Of a stretch of DNA of 37,663 bases, positions 1-33,240 are shown piece after piece. Source of the DNA: a virus. A program made the translations under genes and the position numbers. The notes beneath the pieces are model-generated. The model saw only the letters and a list, made by a program, of their open reading frames with translations. It was not told the origin of the DNA and did not search any database. Position 1 is the stretch's first letter. The number at the start of each line of letters is the position of its first letter. The stretch spans positions 1 to 37,663 of IMG/VR virus record IMGVR_UViG_3300020020_000104. One strand, written 5' to 3'.

Positions 1-586
1 CCATGCCTCGGATATTTGAAATATCAGCGAGTGCTGCTACCTCTCTTACCCACTCGGAAGCGCCAAGGCAATGCATGTTATTGAATCGATAACTGAAGTG
101 TGTGCCTGCCGCTTCGGTTAGAGCTTCCAGGAAGGTCATCCGGAACGTCTTGTGTATCAGTCGATTCAAGATACGAGGGATATGTACGTTACTGATCCAA
201 GGTAGGTGGTCGTAGAAGGTCAAGCACTTCATCACCTCAGCCATGTTCTCACCTTGAACAACTCCAGCGTACCTGAAGGTGTCTGGGAGAGCCCACTGCT
301 CGAATCGCTTGACTTCGATGATTGTGTCTGTACAACTACCCATCACGTCAGGCACGATGACTTCATCTGCTGCAATATGTTCAGCAGCAGCATGCAAATC
401 CTGATGGTAGATAGTCTCACCTTCTGCAGCTCCGTTGTCAAGGATCTTGAAACCTTCGATCTCGGCGTAGAAGTCCGAGTACTCTTCAGATACTTCCATC
501 ACTTGAGGTAGAACCAGATGGTAGCCTGTGTTGTACTTAGATACTACGTCCAACAGATCAATGGGTGCTATTAAAGCTATTTGCAC
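1..586 (-). CDS. dpdA: DpdA-like DNA 7-deazaguanine transglycosylase, 5' part only
   Basis: Cut by the left edge after 195 codons. Translating the minus strand gives a TGT/DpdA-like TIM-barrel protein: LDNGAAE at residues 49-55 (place of the substrate-binding Asp in tRNA-guanine transglycosylases), IVPD at 77-80, GVVQG at 108-112 and HCLGASEW at 172-179. The Asp nucleophile expected shortly after RGM (193-195) falls outside. DpdA enzymes exchange guanine in DNA for preQ0 or a derivative; this fits the FolE, QueD, QueE and QueC genes just upstream. The start is taken as GTG at 586 because GGGAGG lies a few bases before it and the N-terminus VQIALIAPIDLL is typical. It overlaps the end of the MazG-like gene by 29 nt. 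A tRNA TGT is the alternative, but the cassette favours DNA. Confidence 0.8.
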   Translation of the reverse strand, partial: MQIALIAPIDLLDVVSKYNTGYHLVLPQVMEVSEEYSDFYAEIEGFKILDNGAAEGETIYHQDLHAAAEHIAADEVIVPDVMGSCTDTIIEVKRFEQWALPDTFRYAGVVQGENMAEVMKCLTFYDHLPWISNVHIPRILNRLIHKTFRMTFLEALTEAAGTHFSYRFNNMHCLGASEWVREVAALADISNIRGM

Positions 587-890
587 CGAACCTCCCTTCG
601 TTGGTCTCGCGCTTGGTGTAGTACTCTTCGATCAGGTCCATCTGTAGGATCCTGGAGGCCAGCATAACGTAGATGAAGATGTCGGTGAGCTCTTCCCGTA
701 ACTTGGGTAGAGCCTCGTGGTAGGTCTTCGAACCCCGAACCATCTTCTTGATCTCGTCAGCGAACTCTCCAGCCTCACCAACAAGACCGAGTGTCATGGT
801 CACGATGTCGTCAGGTACGTTGCTGAACCACCTGACCGAGTCTTCGTAGGCCTCGTCGATCATGAGGGCCAGTTCTTTAGATATGGACAC
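558..890 (-). CDS. MazG-like nucleotide pyrophosphohydrolase
   Basis: 110 residues, all-helical, with the MazG/dUTPase-like metal-binding pattern: GEAGEFADEIKK at about 38-49 (the ExxE part) and EELTDIFIY at about 66-74 (the ExxD part). Such enzymes hydrolyse (d)NTPs to monophosphates; phage copies often adjust nucleotide pools or remove unwanted nucleotides. It lies between FolE and DpdA in one tight operon, so it may serve the modified-nucleotide pathway, for example by trimming dGTP or pathway by-products; that link is inference. It is a single-domain phage-type protein, much shorter than E. coli MazG. Confidence 0.8.
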   Translation of the reverse strand: MSISKELALMIDEAYEDSVRWFSNVPDDIVTMTLGLVGEAGEFADEIKKMVRGSKTYHEALPKLREELTDIFIYVMLASRILQMDLIEEYYTKRETNEGRFGANSFNSTH

Positions 891-891
891 G

Positions 892-1458
892 TCATCCCCT
901 AATGAGTGCTAGAAATTCTGGTCGGGCTTGCTTGGCTGGATCGAGGAAGGCCCCTCGCATAACAGAAGTTGTCGTAGATGCGTTCTGGACTTGGACACCT
1001 CGCATTGCCATACAAAGGTGCTCAGCTTCAAGTACAACAGCCAAGCCGACTGGGTCAACGAGTCCAGCTGAGAGGGTGTCAGCGATAGCGACTCCCAAGT
1101 GTTCTTGGACCCACAAGCCTCTAGCTGTCGACCGCACGACTCGAGCAAACTTACTAAGTCCGGCAATCTTGCTTCCGGGGATGTATCCAACGTGTGCCTT
1201 TCCGAAGAACGGGATGATGTGATGGGCACACAAACTGTAGAAGCTAATGTCCTTGATCACCACCATCTCGTCGACTTTGTTTGTGTTGTCGAAAGTGGTG
1301 AAGGCAACCGGGTCCGGGTGAGTCAATTCCCACAGGAGGGTAGCCCATCGTTCAGGAGTCTTCGCTGTATGTTCGTTGTCTTCTGGGTTAGAACCTGTTA
1401 GCGTCCAGAGTACATCGCCCATCATACCTTTGAGAGCTTCTTGACGACTGATACTCAT
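892..1458 (-). CDS. folE: GTP cyclohydrolase I
   Basis: 188 residues from ATG at 1458, which overlaps the queE stop as ATGA; a longer upstream reading frame would run into queE. It converts GTP to dihydroneopterin triphosphate, the first step towards preQ0. The zinc site is visible as C77 and H80 in SLCAHHIIPF and C149 in EAEHLCMAMRGV; GLSKFAR (100-106) is the usual core motif. The first zinc motif reads CAHH where most bacterial enzymes have CEHH, so one conserved Glu is Ala. Length matches the type I family. The gene is followed with no gap by the MazG-like gene. Confidence 0.93.
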   Translation of the reverse strand: MSISRQEALKGMMGDVLWTLTGSNPEDNEHTAKTPERWATLLWELTHPDPVAFTTFDNTNKVDEMVVIKDISFYSLCAHHIIPFFGKAHVGYIPGSKIAGLSKFARVVRSTARGLWVQEHLGVAIADTLSAGLVDPVGLAVVLEAEHLCMAMRGVQVQNASTTTSVMRGAFLDPAKQARPEFLALIRG

Positions 1459-2165
1459 ACAAATCGGGCCTCGGGATCGTAGATGTACTTGTGGACTTGT
1501 ACGTTGAGTCGCCAGTCGGTCAGGCGGTTGTCTTTCATGAACTGGACGATATCTGCTTCGCTGAGTGTGTCCCAAGCCGTACCTAACCAGAAGGTAGCTG
1601 GACTACCAAACTGACGAAGCTGTTCGCCTGTCATTACTGCTTCGCGGAGATCCTTCTCGTCGGTACAAACGAACTTGATGCCGCACTCACCATGAAGGCT
1701 CCGAGCATTCTTGGCTCGTATGTCCCGAAGTTCGAACTTCAAGTCTTCGCCGGAACCCTTGAGCTTCCAGTCCAACATGATCGTATGACGTGTAGCCCAG
1801 AATGGTAACGGGAACGTTCCGTTGGTAAAGAACTCAACGCTGAACCCTTGTTCGATCAGTACGTAGACCACAAGGCGAAGTGTCTCGTTGTCCTGCATGA
1901 AGGGCTCGCCGCCGGTAAAGCAAACGTTCTTGGCGCCGTTGGTATCTGCTTGACGCATAATCCTGGCAACGCATCGATCAGGTATATCGCGATCGAACTT
2001 GCCATGATACTGGTTGGGGAAGATGGCCTGAGGTGTATCACAGGGCCAGCCTGGGCAACGTAGGTTACAGCCAGCGAAGCGTACGAACTGTGTAAGCTTC
2101 CCAGTATGAAACCCTTCACCCTGCACCGACGTGTAGTGCTCGAGTACTTTCAAATAACCTGACAT
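1455..2165 (-). CDS. queE: 7-carboxy-7-deazaguanine synthase (radical SAM)
   Basis: 236 residues from ATG at 2165, preceded by GGGAGAG, and sharing one base with the queD stop (TAATG). It converts 6-carboxytetrahydropterin to 7-carboxy-7-deazaguanine using a 4Fe-4S cluster and S-adenosylmethionine. Seen: SVQGEG (13-18), the cluster cysteines C33, C37 and C42, GGEP (85-88) for SAM binding, FFTNGT (112-117), and the QueE-type C-terminus NVQVHKYIY (221-229). The cluster motif is CNLRCPGWPC, that is CX3CX4C; the common radical SAM spacing is CX3CX2C. The family is otherwise clear. Confidence 0.92.
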   Translation of the reverse strand: MSGYLKVLEHYTSVQGEGFHTGKLTQFVRFAGCNLRCPGWPCDTPQAIFPNQYHGKFDRDIPDRCVARIMRQADTNGAKNVCFTGGEPFMQDNETLRLVVYVLIEQGFSVEFFTNGTFPLPFWATRHTIMLDWKLKGSGEDLKFELRDIRAKNARSLHGECGIKFVCTDEKDLREAVMTGEQLRQFGSPATFWLGTAWDTLSEADIVQFMKDNRLTDWRLNVQVHKYIYDPEARFV

Positions 2166-2565
2166 TAACTCTCCCAGACTGCTGCGTTGGTTGATGCTTC
2201 CCAGAGACGGACTTCGTATTGTTCCATGCCTGGGAGATTCTGTTCTGCCCACGAGCCGATCCACTTGGACATGTTCTCTACTGTTGGCATAGCGGGCACT
2301 ATTACGAGACCGGGGTAGAAGTCTTGTGCTTTGGTGGACTCGGTTCTCATACCGGCTAGTAGTGGATCTTTGACATCGAGAGCTAGGACCTGAACGCCTT
2401 CTTGACTTCACCGAAGTCTACGATGATCCCACGGTCGTCTGGACGCTTCCACATGGTGAGCTCGCACCACCAGGAGTGTCCGTGGATGTGCTCACACTTA
2501 CCTGGAAGATCCCAGAGTCTGTGCGCCATCTCGATGTTGTGCTTTACCAGAATTGACTGAAGCAT
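2165..2565 (-). CDS. queD: 6-carboxytetrahydropterin synthase, split by a -1 frameshift
   Basis: Makes 6-carboxytetrahydropterin from FolE's product. The first part starts at ATG 2565 (after GGAGGAAG) and shows H15 in MAHRL, C24, H28 and H30 in GKCEHIHGH (zinc and catalytic Cys) and GIIVDFGEVKKAF (46-58), then stops at TAG 2383-2385. The rest of the fold, with VPAMPTVENMSKWI and a final EVRLWEAS, continues in the -1 frame to 2165. The frames join near AGGTCC (about 2386-2391); one extra G there would restore a single protein of about 130 residues. Where most QueD proteins have LDH, this one reads LDV, so the usual active-site His is not seen. Either an assembly error, programmed shifting, or a decaying gene would fit. 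Confidence 0.75.
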
Positions 2566-2905
2566 GTACTGCTTCCTCCTCGTCGTATAGTACCTTGGCA
2601 ATCACTGCGTACACAGCGCGGTCCAGATACGCGTCATCACTTGTCTTGGTATGTGCAATGGGTAGCACCTGTACGGGTACTCTGTTTTGCCATTGCTTGA
2701 GTGCGGCATAATGTTTGCCGAGAAGGATCTCTGTACACCGAAGTGGTGTTAGACCTGTAAAGTAGCCAATGTCGCGAATAGTCTGAAAGGGATCCTTCTC
2801 CGAAGCGTAACTCTCAGACTTCATTCGGTAGGTCATCGCTATCTGCATCAACACGTATTCGAACGGGTCGTCCGCAGAGAGCTCCAAGTGTTCTGGGCTG
2901 GGCAT
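2498..2905 (-). CDS. Conserved-looking phage protein of unknown function in the preQ0 cassette
   Basis: 135 residues, not recognised with certainty. It is predicted mostly helical, with a basic and aromatic middle (IRDIGYFTGLTPLRCTEIL, about 43-61) and a second acidic helix (DAYLDRAVYAVIAKVLYDEE). The pattern recalls small all-alpha phage proteins linked with nucleotide modification, but no catalytic signature can be named. It lies between queC and queD. Its last 23 codons overlap queD by 68 nt, far more than other junctions here, and that tail (from HASVNSG) is low in structure, so the real C-terminus may be shorter or the sequence may hold an indel. Confidence 0.6.
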   Translation of the reverse strand: MPSPEHLELSADDPFEYVLMQIAMTYRMKSESYASEKDPFQTIRDIGYFTGLTPLRCTEILLGKHYAALKQWQNRVPVQVLPIAHTKTSDDAYLDRAVYAVIAKVLYDEEEAVHASVNSGKAQHRDGAQTLGSSR

Positions 2906-2913
2906 TAGGACTC

Positions 2914-3603
2914 CTAGAAGTGTCGGGTTAGGTCTGAGTAGTGAGTGGGATCGTCTACGCCTGCGTTCACGAAGGCTTCACGGCGCTCTGTGCATGTACC
3001 ACATACACCGCAATGATACTTCCCGCCTTTGTAGCAGCTCCATGTATCTTCCCATGGCACTTCGAGGCGATGTCCCCAGTCAGCAATCTCTGCCTTGGAG
3101 ATGTGGATGAACGGTACCTGGATGGAGAAGTGGTCAGATATGAACCCTTTGTTGGCGATCTTCACGGTATAGTCCAACTGTTCGATAAACTCGGGTCGAC
3201 AGTCAGGATAGATGAAGTGGTCTCCTGCATGCATACCTGCCCAAACGTGATCAGCTCCTTCGGCGACGGCGATGCCACAAGCGACCGACAGCATGATCAT
3301 GTTCCGATTGGGAACTACTGTTGCTCGCATGGACTCTTCAGCATAGTGCCCATCAGGGACAGCCACAGAATCGCTAGTAAGAGCACTCCCGGCCAGAAGT
3401 GTAGCCATGAAAGCCATATCAACAATCCGGTGTTGAACGCCAAGTTTGCGGCAGCTCGCTGTTGCATAGTGGAGCTCTTTCCGATGCCTCTGACCATAGT
3501 TGAAGCTTACCGCCTTTACTTCCCTCACGGAAGCCTTCTCGCGTACGACGTGGTATAGTAACGTCGTCGAATCCATTCCGCCACTCATCACTACCAGTTC
3601 CAT
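2914..3603 (-). CDS. queC: 7-cyano-7-deazaguanine (preQ0) synthase
   Basis: 229 residues. It turns 7-carboxy-7-deazaguanine into preQ0 with ATP and ammonia, the last step before insertion. Seen: the PP-loop SGGMDST (7-13) for ATP, FNYGQRHRKE (34-43), VPNRNMIML (97-105) and four zinc cysteines C190, C198, C201 and C204 in the typical CYKGGKYHCGVCGTC block. Length is that of a normal QueC; no amidotransferase domain is fused, unlike the Gat-QueC proteins of phages that carry archaeosine-like bases. The most likely DNA base is therefore preQ0 itself (inference). The ATG shares a base with the primase stop codon. Confidence 0.94.
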   Translation of the reverse strand: MELVVMSGGMDSTTLLYHVVREKASVREVKAVSFNYGQRHRKELHYATASCRKLGVQHRIVDMAFMATLLAGSALTSDSVAVPDGHYAEESMRATVVPNRNMIMLSVACGIAVAEGADHVWAGMHAGDHFIYPDCRPEFIEQLDYTVKIANKGFISDHFSIQVPFIHISKAEIADWGHRLEVPWEDTWSCYKGGKYHCGVCGTCTERREAFVNAGVDDPTHYSDLTRHF

Positions 3604-5780
3604 TAGTCTCCAATCGCTTGTAGTCGTTCTGATCTTCCTGATTTGGTTCTGATCATTAACCCTCGTTGCTCCAGGGTTTCTAATATCACGTCTGTCTCAC
3701 GTGCACGCAGATGGAAGTGTTGCATAACTTCGCTACGCAGAATTCCTGGACGCCTGATGATCATCTTAAGTACCGACAGTAGTTGGTTCTCTTGTGTAGT
3801 AGTCCCTACAGCCTGTATGACTTCGATCGCATACCCTCGCCACTGTTCGCAGTACGCCATAGCCTTAACTAGGTCCTGCTCTTCGACTACTACCCGTTCA
3901 TCTAATCGACTTGCCGCAGCTATCAATATAGCCGCCTTGAGTGTCGACTTTGATAGACGATCCATTACAGGTGTCATGATGTCCTGGTTCTGAGAAGCGA
4001 GTCCCAGTGCCATCATATCGTTCTCGAACTGATTGTAACGATCCCAAGCATCATCAGTTACAGTAGCGTCCCAGATCTTATCGACGGCACGCTTTGTCTT
4101 GTCGACAGTAATGATCGTTTGTGCTTGGTAGTGATCATGGATCTTCGACAGTGAGTTCAGAATCTCATTACGACGCCCTTGTGTCTTCTCGGTAGGTGGC
4201 CCAAGAGGTCGCAACTTTGTAATGTCTGACTCTGCTGTGATGAAGACGAACCGCGGGAGGAACCCAGAGACCACGTGTTGGATCTCGAGTAGCGCCAGCA
4301 TCCTGGTCTTAATACCCCCGGCGAATATGATAAGGACGGGGTCTCGGACCTCGATTATTTCTTTGCGGAGTACTCGCTTCTGGAGCTTTCCATCGTACAG
4401 CTTGGTAAACGCTTCCGCCATTCCAGCGTAGTAGTCTTTCTTTGACATGGCTTCCAGCAAGCCCGAGAACTCGTCCCGTAAGAAGACAGAAGGCTTTCCC
4501 GGTCGCATTGACAGCGAAGTAAACAGACCCTCGATCGATCCGTCCGTAGCAAGGATCGCATTGGAGGATATGTCGCTCAATAAGTCGATAGATATGTCCA
4601 TTGCCGTAGTCTTCCGGGTCAAGGTAGTATCGGCAAGGATCATAAACCATAGGTTTGGCACCACCGTCCCAAATGAAGTCGGCAATCGGACAGGGCCTGC
4701 AAGGAGCGACGACAGGACAATGAATGCCCCAGCTTGATGGTACTGCCAAGCAGCGTCCCCTAACGTCTTTGCCCATTCGATGTACTCCTCCACGAACATT
4801 GGATTGTTCTCTGCGTCGCGACGTTCTTGGTCCGTTAGGATTGGATGCTCATGAACGTCTGCCGACGAAACGATCTTGTGTCGCTCTTCGAACGACTTGT
4901 AGGACCGACAGACTTCCTTCCACAGGAGCTCTGTAGGCTTACCGTCCCTCTTGTACTTATTGCAGGCAGCAGCACCACTGACGATGTATACTTCCCGTGG
5001 GGTCATACCTGATTCGAACAGGATCATCTGTAGCTGCCAAAGCGCTGACGACCAATCTAGTTCAGGCTTCTCATGGAACAGCGTTCGTCCCATCGGAGGG
5101 ATTCGCTTTCTGTGCCTCTCCATGATCTCTTCGGCTGACTCGGTTAACTCCTCCTCTGTGGGAAGTGGTAACTCAAGGCCCCCGTGGAACCCTTTAGCTG
5201 GAGGGTATAACTCCTTCATACCGCCAACAGAAAATCGCCCGCCGTAGCGGACTAGTTTGACCTTCGTGTTGATATACTTGTGATTGGTCGTATCAGGTAT
5301 ACGTAGAAGCTGGGTAAGATCCCACCCTGATCGATCAGCACCTTTGTCGGCATGATAGTAAGCGATGCGTCGGGATATCTCTTCTGCGTCTCCTGGGTCA
5401 ACATGGTCCTCACGTGTCCAAAGCCAGAAGCCCTGGTATCGTTTGTCTGAACTCTCGATGAGCGCAGTAGGTTGTACTAACAATTCGGTGGGAAGTAGCG
5501 TATCGAGATCGGCCCATGCGCACGGCGCTTCTATCACCGCTTCCTTCGTCCGCGACTTTCTTTCGAACAGTTGTGGACAGAAGTACATGTCGTACTGATC
5601 GCTGTACTCGACAATGTGGTTGATTGCATCGAACAACTCTTCAGGGTACTGGAAGAACGTTTCGGCGAACTCTTTAGTAGGCCTGTAGATGCGTGCGATG
5701 CAAAGGTACCCATGACCTTGGTCAAAGATGACCCTGATGAACTGTGTGATCCTATCTTCCCGTGTGATTGCTACTGACAA
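3603..5780 (-). CDS. Primase-helicase (AEP/RepB-type primase with DUF3987-like helicase)
   Basis: 725 residues. The N-terminal part is an archaeo-eukaryotic primase of the RepB type: WADLD at 89-93 (catalytic acids), YQGFWLW, and LLRIPDTTNHK. The middle has a Walker A-like segment in ILADTTLTRKTTAM (about 381-394) and a Walker B-like FLRDEFSGLL (433-442), as in DUF3987 helicases. The C-terminus (RRPGILRSEVMQHFHL) looks like a winged helix. It would prime and unwind phage DNA. The start is uncertain: TTG at 5780 has AAGGGAG four bases ahead; ATG at 5843 is in frame but has no ribosome site. The TTG is preceded by an 8-bp hairpin (5781-5806) that covers the ribosome site. Confidence 0.85.
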   Translation of the reverse strand: MSVAITREDRITQFIRVIFDQGHGYLCIARIYRPTKEFAETFFQYPEELFDAINHIVEYSDQYDMYFCPQLFERKSRTKEAVIEAPCAWADLDTLLPTELLVQPTALIESSDKRYQGFWLWTREDHVDPGDAEEISRRIAYYHADKGADRSGWDLTQLLRIPDTTNHKYINTKVKLVRYGGRFSVGGMKELYPPAKGFHGGLELPLPTEEELTESAEEIMERHRKRIPPMGRTLFHEKPELDWSSALWQLQMILFESGMTPREVYIVSGAAACNKYKRDGKPTELLWKEVCRSYKSFEERHKIVSSADVHEHPILTDQERRDAENNPMFVEEYIEWAKTLGDAAWQYHQAGAFIVLSSLLAGPVRLPTSFGTVVPNLWFMILADTTLTRKTTAMDISIDLLSDISSNAILATDGSIEGLFTSLSMRPGKPSVFLRDEFSGLLEAMSKKDYYAGMAEAFTKLYDGKLQKRVLRKEIIEVRDPVLIIFAGGIKTRMLALLEIQHVVSGFLPRFVFITAESDITKLRPLGPPTEKTQGRRNEILNSLSKIHDHYQAQTIITVDKTKRAVDKIWDATVTDDAWDRYNQFENDMMALGLASQNQDIMTPVMDRLSKSTLKAAILIAAASRLDERVVVEEQDLVKAMAYCEQWRGYAIEVIQAVGTTTQENQLLSVLKMIIRRPGILRSEVMQHFHLRARETDVILETLEQRGLMIRTKSGRSERLQAIGD

Positions 5781-5806
5781 CTCACTCCCTTCAGGTTTGG
5801 AGTGAG
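5781..5806 (-). promoter_or_regulatory. Hairpin over the primase ribosome-binding site
   Basis: A perfect 8-bp stem (arms 5781-5788 and 5799-5806) with a 10-nt loop ends one base before the proposed TTG start. The ribosome site AGGGAG is in the stem and loop edge, so folding should limit translation. If ATG 5843 is the true start, the hairpin would be inside the coding sequence and this reading fails. Confidence 0.35.
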
Positions 5807-5877
5807 GTGGGCACCTTTTCGGGCGGTCGTTTAATGCAGCCATCCACGTGAGGCTAGCACCCACCACACTTGTCAGT

Positions 5878-6384
5878 TCACGGGAGCAACGATCCGCTGC
5901 CCGAAGGGCCAGTCTTGATCGAGCTGTCCTTGACACTGAGCGCCTTCTTCACCTCGTTGCGCTCGTCGTAATCAGCCGTCTCAGCCTGGATCCGGATATC
6001 GAGAATCACATCGGCGCCCAAGACATCTTCGGGCTCGAACTCGATATCGCCGTCGAGCTGGTCATGCGTGAACCGTCCAGTGGCCTCGAGCAGACCCTTC
6101 AGTGCGAAGAGTGCCTGCGGGAGAAGGGAAGTGTTCATCCACTGCCGACGTCCGCTGTACTCGCCAGCGTCCTCTGACAACGTGAACTCCCACTGGATGT
6201 ATTCGGCACCCGGGTTCTTCGCCTTCGGCCCCGACTCCTTGATTTCGAAATCGGTGACCTTCGCGGGATACTTCCCACGTGGCATTACTGGGAATCCCCC
6301 GGACTGTACTCCTGTGAAGTTTGCTTTGATAGGCAAGTTAGGCAGCTTTCGTGTTGTTGTTGTTTGTGTTGTGGACGAGGTCAT
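5878..6384 (-). CDS. DUF669-like phage recombination/ssDNA-binding protein
   Basis: 168 residues. The core FTGVQSGGFPVMPRGKYPAKV (22-43, shortened reading) followed by IQWEFTLSEDAGEYSGRRQW and TSLLPQALFALKGLLEATG matches the DUF669 family, small oligonucleotide-binding proteins that stand beside Sak-type annealing proteins or ATPases in phages. The neighbour is indeed a Sak4-like ATPase, whose end it overlaps by 47 nt if ATG 6384 is used. An internal ATG (M34, after GGGGGA) is possible but would remove conserved residues. The first 16 residues are Thr-rich and the C-terminus is Ser/Gly-rich and disordered. Confidence 0.7.
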   Translation of the reverse strand: MTSSTTQTTTTRKLPNLPIKANFTGVQSGGFPVMPRGKYPAKVTDFEIKESGPKAKNPGAEYIQWEFTLSEDAGEYSGRRQWMNTSLLPQALFALKGLLEATGRFTHDQLDGDIEFEPEDVLGADVILDIRIQAETADYDERNEVKKALSVKDSSIKTGPSGSGSLLP

Positions 6385-8180: not shown

Positions 8181-8219
8181 ATTATAATTGCTCTATCTGG
8201 ACCATTTCAAGAGGTCAAA
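8181..8219 (-). promoter_or_regulatory. Two-block phage promoter P1 (nuclease/replication unit)
   Basis: On the minus strand the block TTTGACCTCT begins 33 nt before a perfect TATAAT (8181-8186). Between them TTGAAA can serve as the -35 box with an 18-nt spacer. The first ATG downstream is 25 nt away (8156). The same layout occurs at seven other operon heads in the window. The site overlaps the last codons of the sigma-like gene. Confidence 0.7.
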
Positions 8220-8644
8220 TGAGATTTCCCGTGCGTATGGATCCATCTGCCATAGTCGGCAAGGTACAACTTAGCCTGGCCTTCGTTCAACATTAACAGG
8301 CGAGCGGCACCTCGGAGTCCCCAACCCTTATCCACTAAGTGCTGAACCATAAATCCGGCTAGAGCTCTTTCCTCTTCGTTCATACGAGTGCGTAGGTGCG
8401 GCTCGCCGATCTTCTTCCTGCTACGTTTCACGGTAGCTTTGGTATTCTGATACGACAGGTTCATGACCTCGGCCGTCTGACTATAGGTCAGGTTAGCCCC
8501 ATAATGTAGGATGAAGGCTTCTCTTTCCTTAGGGGACAAGATCGCCAAGTAACTGTTGACTACAGTCTCTCTTTGGTCGCGTTCTTCTTCTGGCAATCTG
8601 CCGTATTGAGGACCATAGTCGTGCGCATCAGAATACTCTACCAT
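8207..8644 (-). CDS. Sigma-70 region 4-like HTH regulator
   Basis: 145 residues. LSPKEREAFILHYGANLTYSQTAEVMNLS (36-64, given in two pieces: LSPKEREAFILHYG and YSQTAEVMNLS) followed by ATVKRSRKKI is the region 4 helix-turn-helix that reads the -35 box. No region 2 is present, so it is not a full sigma factor; a late activator or a sigma-like accessory protein is more likely. A second helical part (MVQHLVDKGWGLRGAARLL) may be another HTH. It starts after GTAGGAGCATA. Given the eight promoters with a special upstream block, this is a candidate for a protein that recognises them (inference). Confidence 0.7.
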   Translation of the reverse strand: MVEYSDAHDYGPQYGRLPEEERDQRETVVNSYLAILSPKEREAFILHYGANLTYSQTAEVMNLSYQNTKATVKRSRKKIGEPHLRTRMNEEERALAGFMVQHLVDKGWGLRGAARLLMLNEGQAKLYLADYGRWIHTHGKSHLTS

Positions 8645-29916: not shown

Positions 29917-32900
29917 ATGGCCATTGCAATCGTTAACACAACGAACGCTACTGTAGCAGCAGCTGGTACTACCGGCATCACGGTTACTAAGCCCGGATCG
30001 TTGGCTAATGGTCATGTTATGTACGCCTTCATCTCACGTACCGACTATGCCCTTACGAACAAATGGACGTGCTCGGGCTGGACTGACATTAGTCCAGCTA
30101 CTCACGGTTCAGCAACTGGTAATGATACTGAACTCACCATCTTACGTAAGGTAGTTACGAATGCTGGTGGTGAACCAGCTAACTACACGTTCGTCAATAC
30201 TCACGCAACCAGTTATCAAATCTGCGGGTTTATCGTAGCACTCTCGGGAGTCAATAACACTACTCCCGAAGACATCACCGTTCCTGCTTATGGCTTTAAC
30301 TCTAATGCACCGAACCCCGCATCACTCAACGCTACCAGTGCTACTGCAACCGCTTTTGTCATTGCGGTACTCCAAGAGTCTCTGCTAACTGCTGCTGCTG
30401 TTACACCGGTAGCCCCTAGCACGTACACACTGATCACCAATGGCAATGCGAACTCGGCGACAGGTTCTCTAGACAACCAAACGATCCTGGCTTCCAAGAC
30501 ACTGGGTGCTGCAGGATCGACTACAGGTACTAACGCGTGGGCAAATACAGGAACGACTTCCACAGTTGAGACTCTTACAGCGGTTGTCCTAGTACGATCT
30601 TTAGATCAGATAGAAGCAACTGTATCAGCGACGTGGGGTGGTCTAGGTGCTACGGCTGCAGCTGATGTGGTTCCTGCTCCCGGAGCAACGGTTGCTCCTC
30701 TCGGTCTCAGCAGTACTGTAGTCAAAGCTAACTGGACAATATCTACACGGGTATGGGCGCAACTAGAAGTTCAGCGCATTGACAATTTGGATCTGGCTGT
30801 ATCGTTAGCGCCTCATGTCATCGAGGCTACCGCTTCCGCTACGTGGAGTGGGCTTGATGGTGCAGCCGCAGCCACAGTTATTCCTGGTCCTGCAACTATT
30901 CAGGCGACTGCGTCTGCTAACTGGGCTGGTCTCAGTGGAGCTGCAACAGCTTCCGTTACTTCTCCAGGTGTCGACTTCAGTAATGCTGCTGTAGCACGTC
31001 GAGCGTCGATCATTACGTTCGACACATATTCGCTTCCTGAAGGCCCAACTGGCGCAATCAATACCAAAGCACTTCGTCAGTGGGCTACTCAGCGTCTTAC
31101 CGACTTCACTGGTGTTGCGGTAACACCAAAGGCACAGACCGATGCCTTTACAAGTACTGAAGCTTCTACCTATGCTGCAGCAGAGACTCAGACCGATTCG
31201 TCTACGGCAACTGAGACTTTCGCTATAACCAACAACGTCTCTGTAGTGACGGATACGCTCACAGCAACTGAGGTTCTGGCTCTTACTACAACCGAAGCTA
31301 AGGCGCAGACCGATTCCTCTACAGCAACGGAAACGTTCTCGATTGCAGTAACGCTTTCGCAGACTGATACGTTTACCGCAACTGATACGGCAACTCTCCT
31401 CACTGACACTTTCAAGACGCAGACCGACACCTTCACTGCAACTGACACTCTTGTTCTGACAGCGAACAGAGCTCAGACCGATTCGCTTGTCGCTACTGAC
31501 ACACTTGTCTTGACGACAGCTATCGCTCCGGTTGATACGTTTACTGCTACTGAGCAGACCTTTGTAATTGGTCGTAGCCAGACTGATACCCTTACTGCTA
31601 CAGAGTCGATTTCGATTGCTGTCACGCTTACGCAGACCGATTCGATTACCGAGTCCGAATCGCTAGCCAATGCAACAGGATCGAACCCTGTAGTCACTGA
31701 CACGTTCACTGCTACTGAGTCCTTTGCATATACAGCAACGAAGGCGGTAGCCGATTCCCCGACCGCTTCGGAAACTCCCACAGGACAAGCGACATTCACG
31801 GTAACCGAAACTGTCACGGTCTCGGAAGTTGTATCGTCCCAGCTTGGTGCGATCTTCGATACCATTACGGCAACCGAAGTTCTGACGCTCGTAGTTCCAA
31901 GGTCTGTAACCGACTCCGCTGTTGTAGCGTCTGAAACGTTCTCCATAGCCGTTACGACTTCAGTCGCCGATTCGTTTACAGAGTCCGATACCTTTGGTCT
32001 ACTAACGGCTCCTGTGCTAGAGACGTACACGGCTACTGATGCCCTTGCACTGACCGCAGCGATTGCTCCTGTTGATACGTTCACGGAGAGCGATGCACTC
32101 AGTGTGTTGCGGAGTTCAACTTCGGTAGACAGCATAACTGTTTCAGATACGTTGGCGACGACAGTAACACATACCGTTACTGACTCCGCTTCAATCAGCG
32201 AAGTCAATCTCACAGCACGTCCAGTTACGGTCACAGATTCGGCTACTGCAACCGATGTCATAACGTCGGTCACTTACGGTTTCTTCGTAATTGACAACGT
32301 TACCTTCTTCGACATTCCAGCCATCTTGAGGACCTTGGCTATAACGGACGATGCAACTATCGTCGAAATCTTCAACACAGGCTCTACGTCCTTGGCGGTG
32401 ACGGATACGTTCGTCGCTACCGAAAGTGGAATCACCGGCGGCATACAAGGTATGCAGGTTCTGGTTCCTGAGTCGGCTACGGTAACAGACTCGATTGCGG
32501 TTGCCTACGCGATCAAGCCAACCGAGGCTATTTCCTTTACCGAGCTCATTAGTGTCCAAGTTACACAGGCTATAACTGATTCGAGTATAGCCGTCGATGT
32601 TGCTGTACCTTCCCCGGAACTTACGATCTCTGACAGCGTAGCCATAGTTGACTCCAGCGGCACTGGCGTTAGTTTCGCTGTCAGCGACGCTGCGGCTGTG
32701 TCGGAGGATTTCCTCTACAGTAGCACATCAGCTACCTCCGACACGGCTATCAGCGTTGACACGAATACCTACCTCACGGCAACGACAGTCAACGACACAT
32801 CGACTATCTCCGAGGCCAACAACTACCAGCGGCAATCAACCGTCACGGATACCTTTACTGCATCAGAGGTTGTCACCTTTGCTAATGCACTACAATTCGT

Positions 32901-33240
32901 CGACGTCGTGCAACAGATTGAGGTGGAAGATAGGCTCAGCATAGCAGCAACGATCGGTGCCAATGATTTGGCTACGGTCGCAGATGCGTTGGCTCCACGA
33001 GTGGAACACGTATTTGCCGAGTTGCTTTCCATTGGTGAACAAGTTATAATAAATGCAACGCTTGTCCTGCTGGATCAGATAGCAGAGTCGGAATTGTGGA
33101 TTCGTCATCCGCCGACGATGAAGCTCCCGGTCTTTACGAGGGCTCGTACGCACCCATCATACTCCGTGCCACGCACGGGTGCTAGCTTGACGACCAGCAG
33201 GGCAGGCGGGCCTACCTTTACGGAGCCAAGAGATGACTGA
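29917..33240 (+). CDS. Very long repeat fibre/adhesin, 1107 residues
   Basis: Residues 1-220 form a jelly-roll-like domain; 225-345 hold three copies of an ATASATWGGLGAxAxA module; from about 405 to 1060 about thirty copies of a 17-20-residue unit, consensus TDTFTATExxxL plus 5-8 residues, make a probable beta-solenoid or stacked hairpin rod rich in Thr, Ser and Asp. The C-terminus (MKLPVFTRARTHPSYSVPRT) is short and basic. A long tail fibre or adhesin binding the host surface is likely. It overlaps the next gene by 8 nt. Confidence 0.7.
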   Translation: MAIAIVNTTNATVAAAGTTGITVTKPGSLANGHVMYAFISRTDYALTNKWTCSGWTDISPATHGSATGNDTELTILRKVVTNAGGEPANYTFVNTHATSYQICGFIVALSGVNNTTPEDITVPAYGFNSNAPNPASLNATSATATAFVIAVLQESLLTAAAVTPVAPSTYTLITNGNANSATGSLDNQTILASKTLGAAGSTTGTNAWANTGTTSTVETLTAVVLVRSLDQIEATVSATWGGLGATAAADVVPAPGATVAPLGLSSTVVKANWTISTRVWAQLEVQRIDNLDLAVSLAPHVIEATASATWSGLDGAAAATVIPGPATIQATASANWAGLSGAATASVTSPGVDFSNAAVARRASIITFDTYSLPEGPTGAINTKALRQWATQRLTDFTGVAVTPKAQTDAFTSTEASTYAAAETQTDSSTATETFAITNNVSVVTDTLTATEVLALTTTEAKAQTDSSTATETFSIAVTLSQTDTFTATDTATLLTDTFKTQTDTFTATDTLVLTANRAQTDSLVATDTLVLTTAIAPVDTFTATEQTFVIGRSQTDTLTATESISIAVTLTQTDSITESESLANATGSNPVVTDTFTATESFAYTATKAVADSPTASETPTGQATFTVTETVTVSEVVSSQLGAIFDTITATEVLTLVVPRSVTDSAVVASETFSIAVTTSVADSFTESDTFGLLTAPVLETYTATDALALTAAIAPVDTFTESDALSVLRSSTSVDSITVSDTLATTVTHTVTDSASISEVNLTARPVTVTDSATATDVITSVTYGFFVIDNVTFFDIPAILRTLAITDDATIVEIFNTGSTSLAVTDTFVATESGITGGIQGMQVLVPESATVTDSIAVAYAIKPTEAISFTELISVQVTQAITDSSIAVDVAVPSPELTISDSVAIVDSSGTGVSFAVSDAAAVSEDFLYSSTSATSDTAISVDTNTYLTATTVNDTSTISEANNYQRQSTVTDTFTASEVVTFANALQFVDVVQQIEVEDRLSIAATIGANDLATVADALAPRVEHVFAELLSIGEQVIINATLVLLDQIAESELWIRHPPTMKLPVFTRARTHPSYSVPRTGASLTTSRAGGPTFTEPRDD
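31130..33090 (+). repeat. Coding repeats of the fibre (about 30 units of 51-60 nt)
   Basis: In-frame, diverged repeats with words such as CAGACCGATTC, ACTGATAC and ACTGCTACTGA. The units near 31130-31750 are more alike than those after 32300, so the array seems to have grown at its 5' side or been recently equalised there. Such DNA is open to length change by slippage or recombination. Confidence 0.7.

Follow-up and report, generated by a model that had tools for sequence, protein, structure and literature searches.

The window analyzed here, a 37,663-base virus record in IMG/VR, carries on its minus strand an operon whose products, as the best explanation of our results (probability about 0.8), synthesize a 7-deazaguanine and place it in the phage's own DNA. 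The system is of a known kind, and the original prediction of it was sound with two corrections: the pathway is incomplete as read, and the inserting enzyme appears not to be of the type found in 9g. The record encodes tailed-phage proteins, i.e., a terminase, a portal, a head protease and an endolysin, and it may be a fragment of a larger genome, of which roughly 10-15 kb is missing, judged by its relatives.

In the mechanism that we propose, FolE, QueD and QueE would convert GTP to 7-carboxy-7-deazaguanine, QueC would convert this compound to preQ0, and a transglycosylase with the TGT fold would excise guanine from the phage DNA and insert the base in its place. The modified base would then shield the phage DNA from host restriction enzymes. 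With queD disrupted, the phage would lean on the QueD of its host, or the genome would be a defective variant, or the contig would contain an assembly error.

Layout and recurrence of the operon

The operon genes run from position 3603 down to position 2 on the minus strand and are preceded by a primase-like gene, giving the order primase–QueC–p135–QueD–QueE–FolE–MazG–transglycosylase. The features are as follows.

3603..5936, minus strand: primase/helicase-like protein, adjoining QueC upstream, in the syntenic block (phrog_10514, E 2e-87)
2914..3603, minus strand: QueC, 7-cyano-7-deazaguanine (preQ0) synthase, 229 aa (PF06508, E 5.9e-66)
2498..2905, minus strand: p135, small all-helical protein conserved in related operons
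2383..2565, minus strand: QueD N-terminal part, 60 aa, with ATG at 2565 and premature TAG at 2383 (PF01242 positions 2-57, E 5.5e-14; TIGR03367)
2165..2391, minus strand: QueD C-terminal remnant, in another frame (PF01242 positions 77-118, E 4e-6)
1455..2165, minus strand: QueE, radical-SAM 7-carboxy-7-deazaguanine synthase (phrog_2076, E 1.3e-34)
892..1458, minus strand: FolE, GTP cyclohydrolase I (PF01227, E 5.7e-49)
558..890, minus strand: MazG-like nucleotide pyrophosphohydrolase, conserved operon member (PF03819, E 2.7e-7)
2..586, minus strand: predicted DNA-guanine transglycosylase, DpdA-like, with its C-terminal part beyond the window edge (alignment, AF2 model, hhalign)

Two members of this stretch, MazG (558-890) and p135 (2498-2905), were absent from the genes listed in the original prediction. 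At nearly every junction the genes abut or overlap: p135 overlaps QueD, the QueD/QueE junction is TAATG and the QueE/FolE junction is ATGA, a spacing that resembles that of a translationally coupled operon.

Relatives were taken as the best 80 of 230 viral stretches from a QueC search. Among these best 80, the gene order recurs in approximately 40 viral contigs, the primase adjoins QueC in 44 loci, and QueC, QueE, FolE and the transglycosylase are found together in 32 loci. QueD lies within the locus in 29 of these 32, MazG is present in 27 and p135 in 11. As judged by gene spacing and synteny, the operon is real.

Several other features were observed outside these genes. The primase-like gene of one relative (L075) is matched in two tblastn segments at ~7343, suggesting a frame break. 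A sigma-70 region 4 domain (PF08281, E 6e-12) was detected in the small protein encoded at positions 8207-8644 of the window, and positions 29917-33240, between structural genes, encode a Ser/Thr-rich repetitive protein of 1107 aa (TDTFTATE-like repeats), which is possibly a virion surface protein.

QueC, QueE, FolE, MazG and p135

QueC scored above the cut-off of TIGR00364 (198 vs 150 bits) and keeps the PP-loop SGGxDS and the C-x-x-C zinc motif, together with all columns that are at least 95% conserved in its 44 relatives. A domain search of the 229-aa protein found no amidotransferase domain, as had been predicted. The match of QueE to TIGR03963 (E 4e-36) is below the cut-off, and its Cys cluster and other conserved columns are kept; FolE keeps the expected Zn ligands C76, H79 and C148. 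QueC, QueE, FolE and MazG show no departure from their 30-44 relatives at any column conserved to 95% or more, and on this basis all four look functional.

A role for MazG in nucleotide pools is a guess. PF07659 matches the p135 family weakly, in 3 of 11 members (best E 2.7e-4), and p135 is possibly DUF1599-like ("nucleotide modification associated domain 1"), the link being a weak one. The model of a p135 homologue had a pLDDT of 88, and no PDB match was found for it.

The QueC gene of a close relative contains an in-frame TAG (L015:6848-6850) where the other relatives have a sense codon, which is either a second lesion in a preQ0 gene of this group or an error.

The queD gene is interrupted

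The preQ0 pathway had been described as complete. FolE, QueE and QueC, with their conserved residues kept, bear this out, but QueD does not, as the gene in the window is not intact. Its N-terminal part keeps the catalytic Cys and the HGH metal site, and a three-frame reading against L005 showed that approximately 28 nt are missing at the break (~2391-2396). An Asp-His pair that is present in 38 of 38 relatives has no equivalent in the alignment of the window; this pair aligns by phmmer with the "DHH" of the solved 6-carboxytetrahydropterin synthase 4ntm. In QueD/PTPS enzymes, Asp-His belongs to the catalytic set (Cys, Asp, His). The motif was not found in any of the three frames around the break, nor was a second PTPS/QueD gene found in the 37,663-nt window.

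With the motif lacking in every frame, QueD would be restored neither by frameshifting nor by correcting a single base. The idea that the split QueD is made as one protein by programmed frameshifting draws on the fact that both halves match the QueD profile, but it is contradicted by the missing motif, and the relatives have a single uninterrupted frame; we consider it extremely improbable. The break thus reflects either a genuine deletion of recent date or a fault in the assembly.

Should the 28-nt gap be an error of assembly or consensus, the virus itself would have an intact QueD and a complete pathway, and the original prediction would be right on this point. The contig comes from one metagenome assembly, and no independent contig with the junction, deleted or intact, was found among the viral contigs. 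In addition, QueD is present in 26 of the 27 related records searched, the exception being a fragment of 17 kb whose end lies close to QueC, and the genes flanking the break are without decay. However, a loss of 28 nt in a non-repeated stretch is atypical for short-read error (no direct repeat behind the deletion was shown, and repeated words around the break do not exceed 7 nt), and the broken QueC of L015 suggests that lesions in this group may be real. We regard an assembly error as a serious possibility that falls somewhat short of probable.

A true loss of QueD, with the phage using the host enzyme and its modification depending on a queuosine-making host, is possible as well, although we hold this reading only tentatively. 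The other operon genes look conserved, the window offers no replacement for QueD, and phages that carry only DpdA are thought to be able to use host preQ0 (PMC6884629). On the other hand, all related contigs that are long enough have their own QueD, in two cases (L026 and L045) relocated ~10-14 kb away from the rest of the operon, suggesting a need for it, and a second copy could sit in the missing part of the genome; a second QueD or a further modifying enzyme may lie in those ~10-15 kb. If the lesion is real, preQ0 synthesis would need host QueD or a copy in the unseen part of the genome, and the phage alone may not make preQ0. An E. coli strain that is null for queD no longer shows the modification otherwise produced by the 9g genes (PMC6884629).

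Identity and family of the transglycosylase

The window edge cuts the transglycosylase gene just short of the codon for the predicted nucleophile, so that the last residue in view is the one preceding it. At the nucleophile position, 20 of 20 full-length relatives have Asp (R-x-x-D-[T/S]; Asp190 in L009). Pfam, NCBIfam and the named PHROGs gave no identification of the protein as DpdA, and searching PDB sequences with a profile of the transglycosylase returned no match; the DpdA identity came from predicted structure and profile comparison. An AF2 model of a full-length homologue (L009) had a pLDDT of 95, and its top solved matches were the TGT structures 6ygl, 6yh2 and 6yiq; the five best matches, at E 5e-5 to 7e-4, also included human QTRT1. 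The resemblance to TGT is distant by Foldseek (E 5e-5, 12% identity), with other TIM barrels close behind. On the evidence of this homologue model, the last gene of the window is predicted to encode a TGT-fold enzyme.

Using hhalign, we compared the family profile with two reference groups. Against an alignment of the 9g, Gordonia Sour and Arthrobacter Sonali DpdA proteins, which comprised three reference sequences only, the probability was 0.4% (E 0.14), whereas against the phiST/Youna2/BSTP12/IBB_35/CC_R7 group it was 100 (E 9e-41), over 239 columns and the full length. The IBB_35 protein is carried at ~97% by CP220 and CPt10. By profile comparison, then, the transglycosylase appears to belong to the same family as the phiST and CP220 proteins and not to the 9g type (DpdA1). 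Of the claim that a DpdA-like transglycosylase shares one operon with the preQ0 genes, the operon and the TGT fold stood. The DpdA3 subfamily was reportedly tied to complete guanine replacement by Cui et al. in 2023, and a possible relationship of the present enzyme to DpdA3 is a lead only.

In two relatives, the transglycosylase gene is followed immediately, on its downstream side, by one for a family A DNA polymerase that bears a UDG-superfamily domain (L009:11675-14053 and L005:12156-14468).

The transglycosylase also bears on whether the operon serves DNA at all, as its genes might instead supply queuosine for host tRNA. QueC, QueD, QueE and FolE are common to queuosine synthesis, and phages having preQ0 genes without a recognised DpdA, among which Hutinet et al. 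counted Campylobacter phages, were once interpreted in this way (PMC6884629). However, the transglycosylase is co-operonic here and is mostly kept where contigs reach far enough, and in cultivated phages the family adjoins preQ0 genes (phiST, Youna2, BSTP12 and CC_R7) and DNA polymerase. CP220 and CPt10, with the same family, have fully modified DNA according to a statement in PMC8306585. At ~250 aa, family members are shorter than TGT, which is consistent with, and not proof of, loss of the tRNA-binding part. Provision of tRNA queuosine is, in our judgment, very unlikely, and DNA modification remains the preferred reading.

Predicted base and extent of guanine replacement

No QueF-like reductase (PF14489) was found in the window, in line with the original prediction, and no match exceeded the cut-off in 27 related records; the QueF matches seen in relatives were rejected as below the cut-off, and the one in L013 falls within FolE. 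In Rosebush and CAjan, FolE, QueD, QueE and QueC with DpdA lead to dPreQ0, at ~28% and ~32% of G, respectively (PMC6884629). Because QueC has no amidotransferase domain and QueF is absent from the window, dPreQ0 (or dADG) would be the likeliest product. By analogy with these phages we place dPreQ0 first and dADG second, the latter being left open because CP220 carries dADG. The prediction of a preQ0-derived replacement of guanine, and of preQ0 as the likely base, is supported by gene content, by synteny in approximately 40 contigs and by the TGT fold.

That only part of the guanine would be replaced is doubtful. The transglycosylase appears not to be of 9g type, and its family includes the protein of CP220 and CPt10, in which 100% of dG is replaced by dADG, as stated in PMC8306585 with reference to Crippen 2019. 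Given this shared family, and insofar as that statement holds, extensive replacement is a better guess than partial replacement, and the exchange of dG could even be complete. Tetranucleotide palindromes in the window are near expectation (observed/expected 0.77-1.46; GATC, 296 vs 283), showing no clear avoidance of sites, a result that is uninformative alone.

A more far-reaching proposal joins these points: a large, uncultivated clade of ~43-55 kb tailed phages would replace all dG with dPreQ0 by means of a non-9g transglycosylase, and the present member would leave the QueD reaction to its host, making its DNA chemistry dependent on host queuosine metabolism. Taken as a whole, this proposal is unlikely.

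Comparison with known systems

The gene set is like those of the Rosebush and CAjan type (PMC6884629), with FolE, QueD, QueE, QueC without an amidotransferase domain or QueF, a transglycosylase gene and dPreQ0 as the predicted base. It differs from the systems of that study in its broken QueD and in having MazG and p135 inside the operon. The transglycosylase has no detectable profile match to the DpdA proteins of 9g, Sour and Sonali, a comparison that left the Rosebush and CAjan proteins outside.

A homologous transglycosylase family is found in the Campylobacter phages CP220 and CPt10 (Firehammervirus), which are very different phages (~177 kb) with dADG as the base and another gene neighbourhood. 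Cellulophaga phiST, Weizmannia Youna2 and Bacillus BSTP12/BSP7 likewise carry the family beside preQ0 genes, although their hosts and replication genes differ from those of the present phage. In phiST, as here, MazG lies between FolE and the transglycosylase, but no QueC was seen near the phiST cluster; in Youna2 and BSTP12, DNA polymerase comes next.

Implications

The broken QueD is a caution that gene lists taken as complete pathways need residue-level checks. A genuine loss of QueD would provide a natural example of a phage relying on its host for one modification step. More broadly, a transglycosylase family that standard annotation missed is now tied to a preQ0 operon that is compact and recurs widely among phages from the environment; this link between operon and family gives a testable prediction on how much guanine such phages replace.
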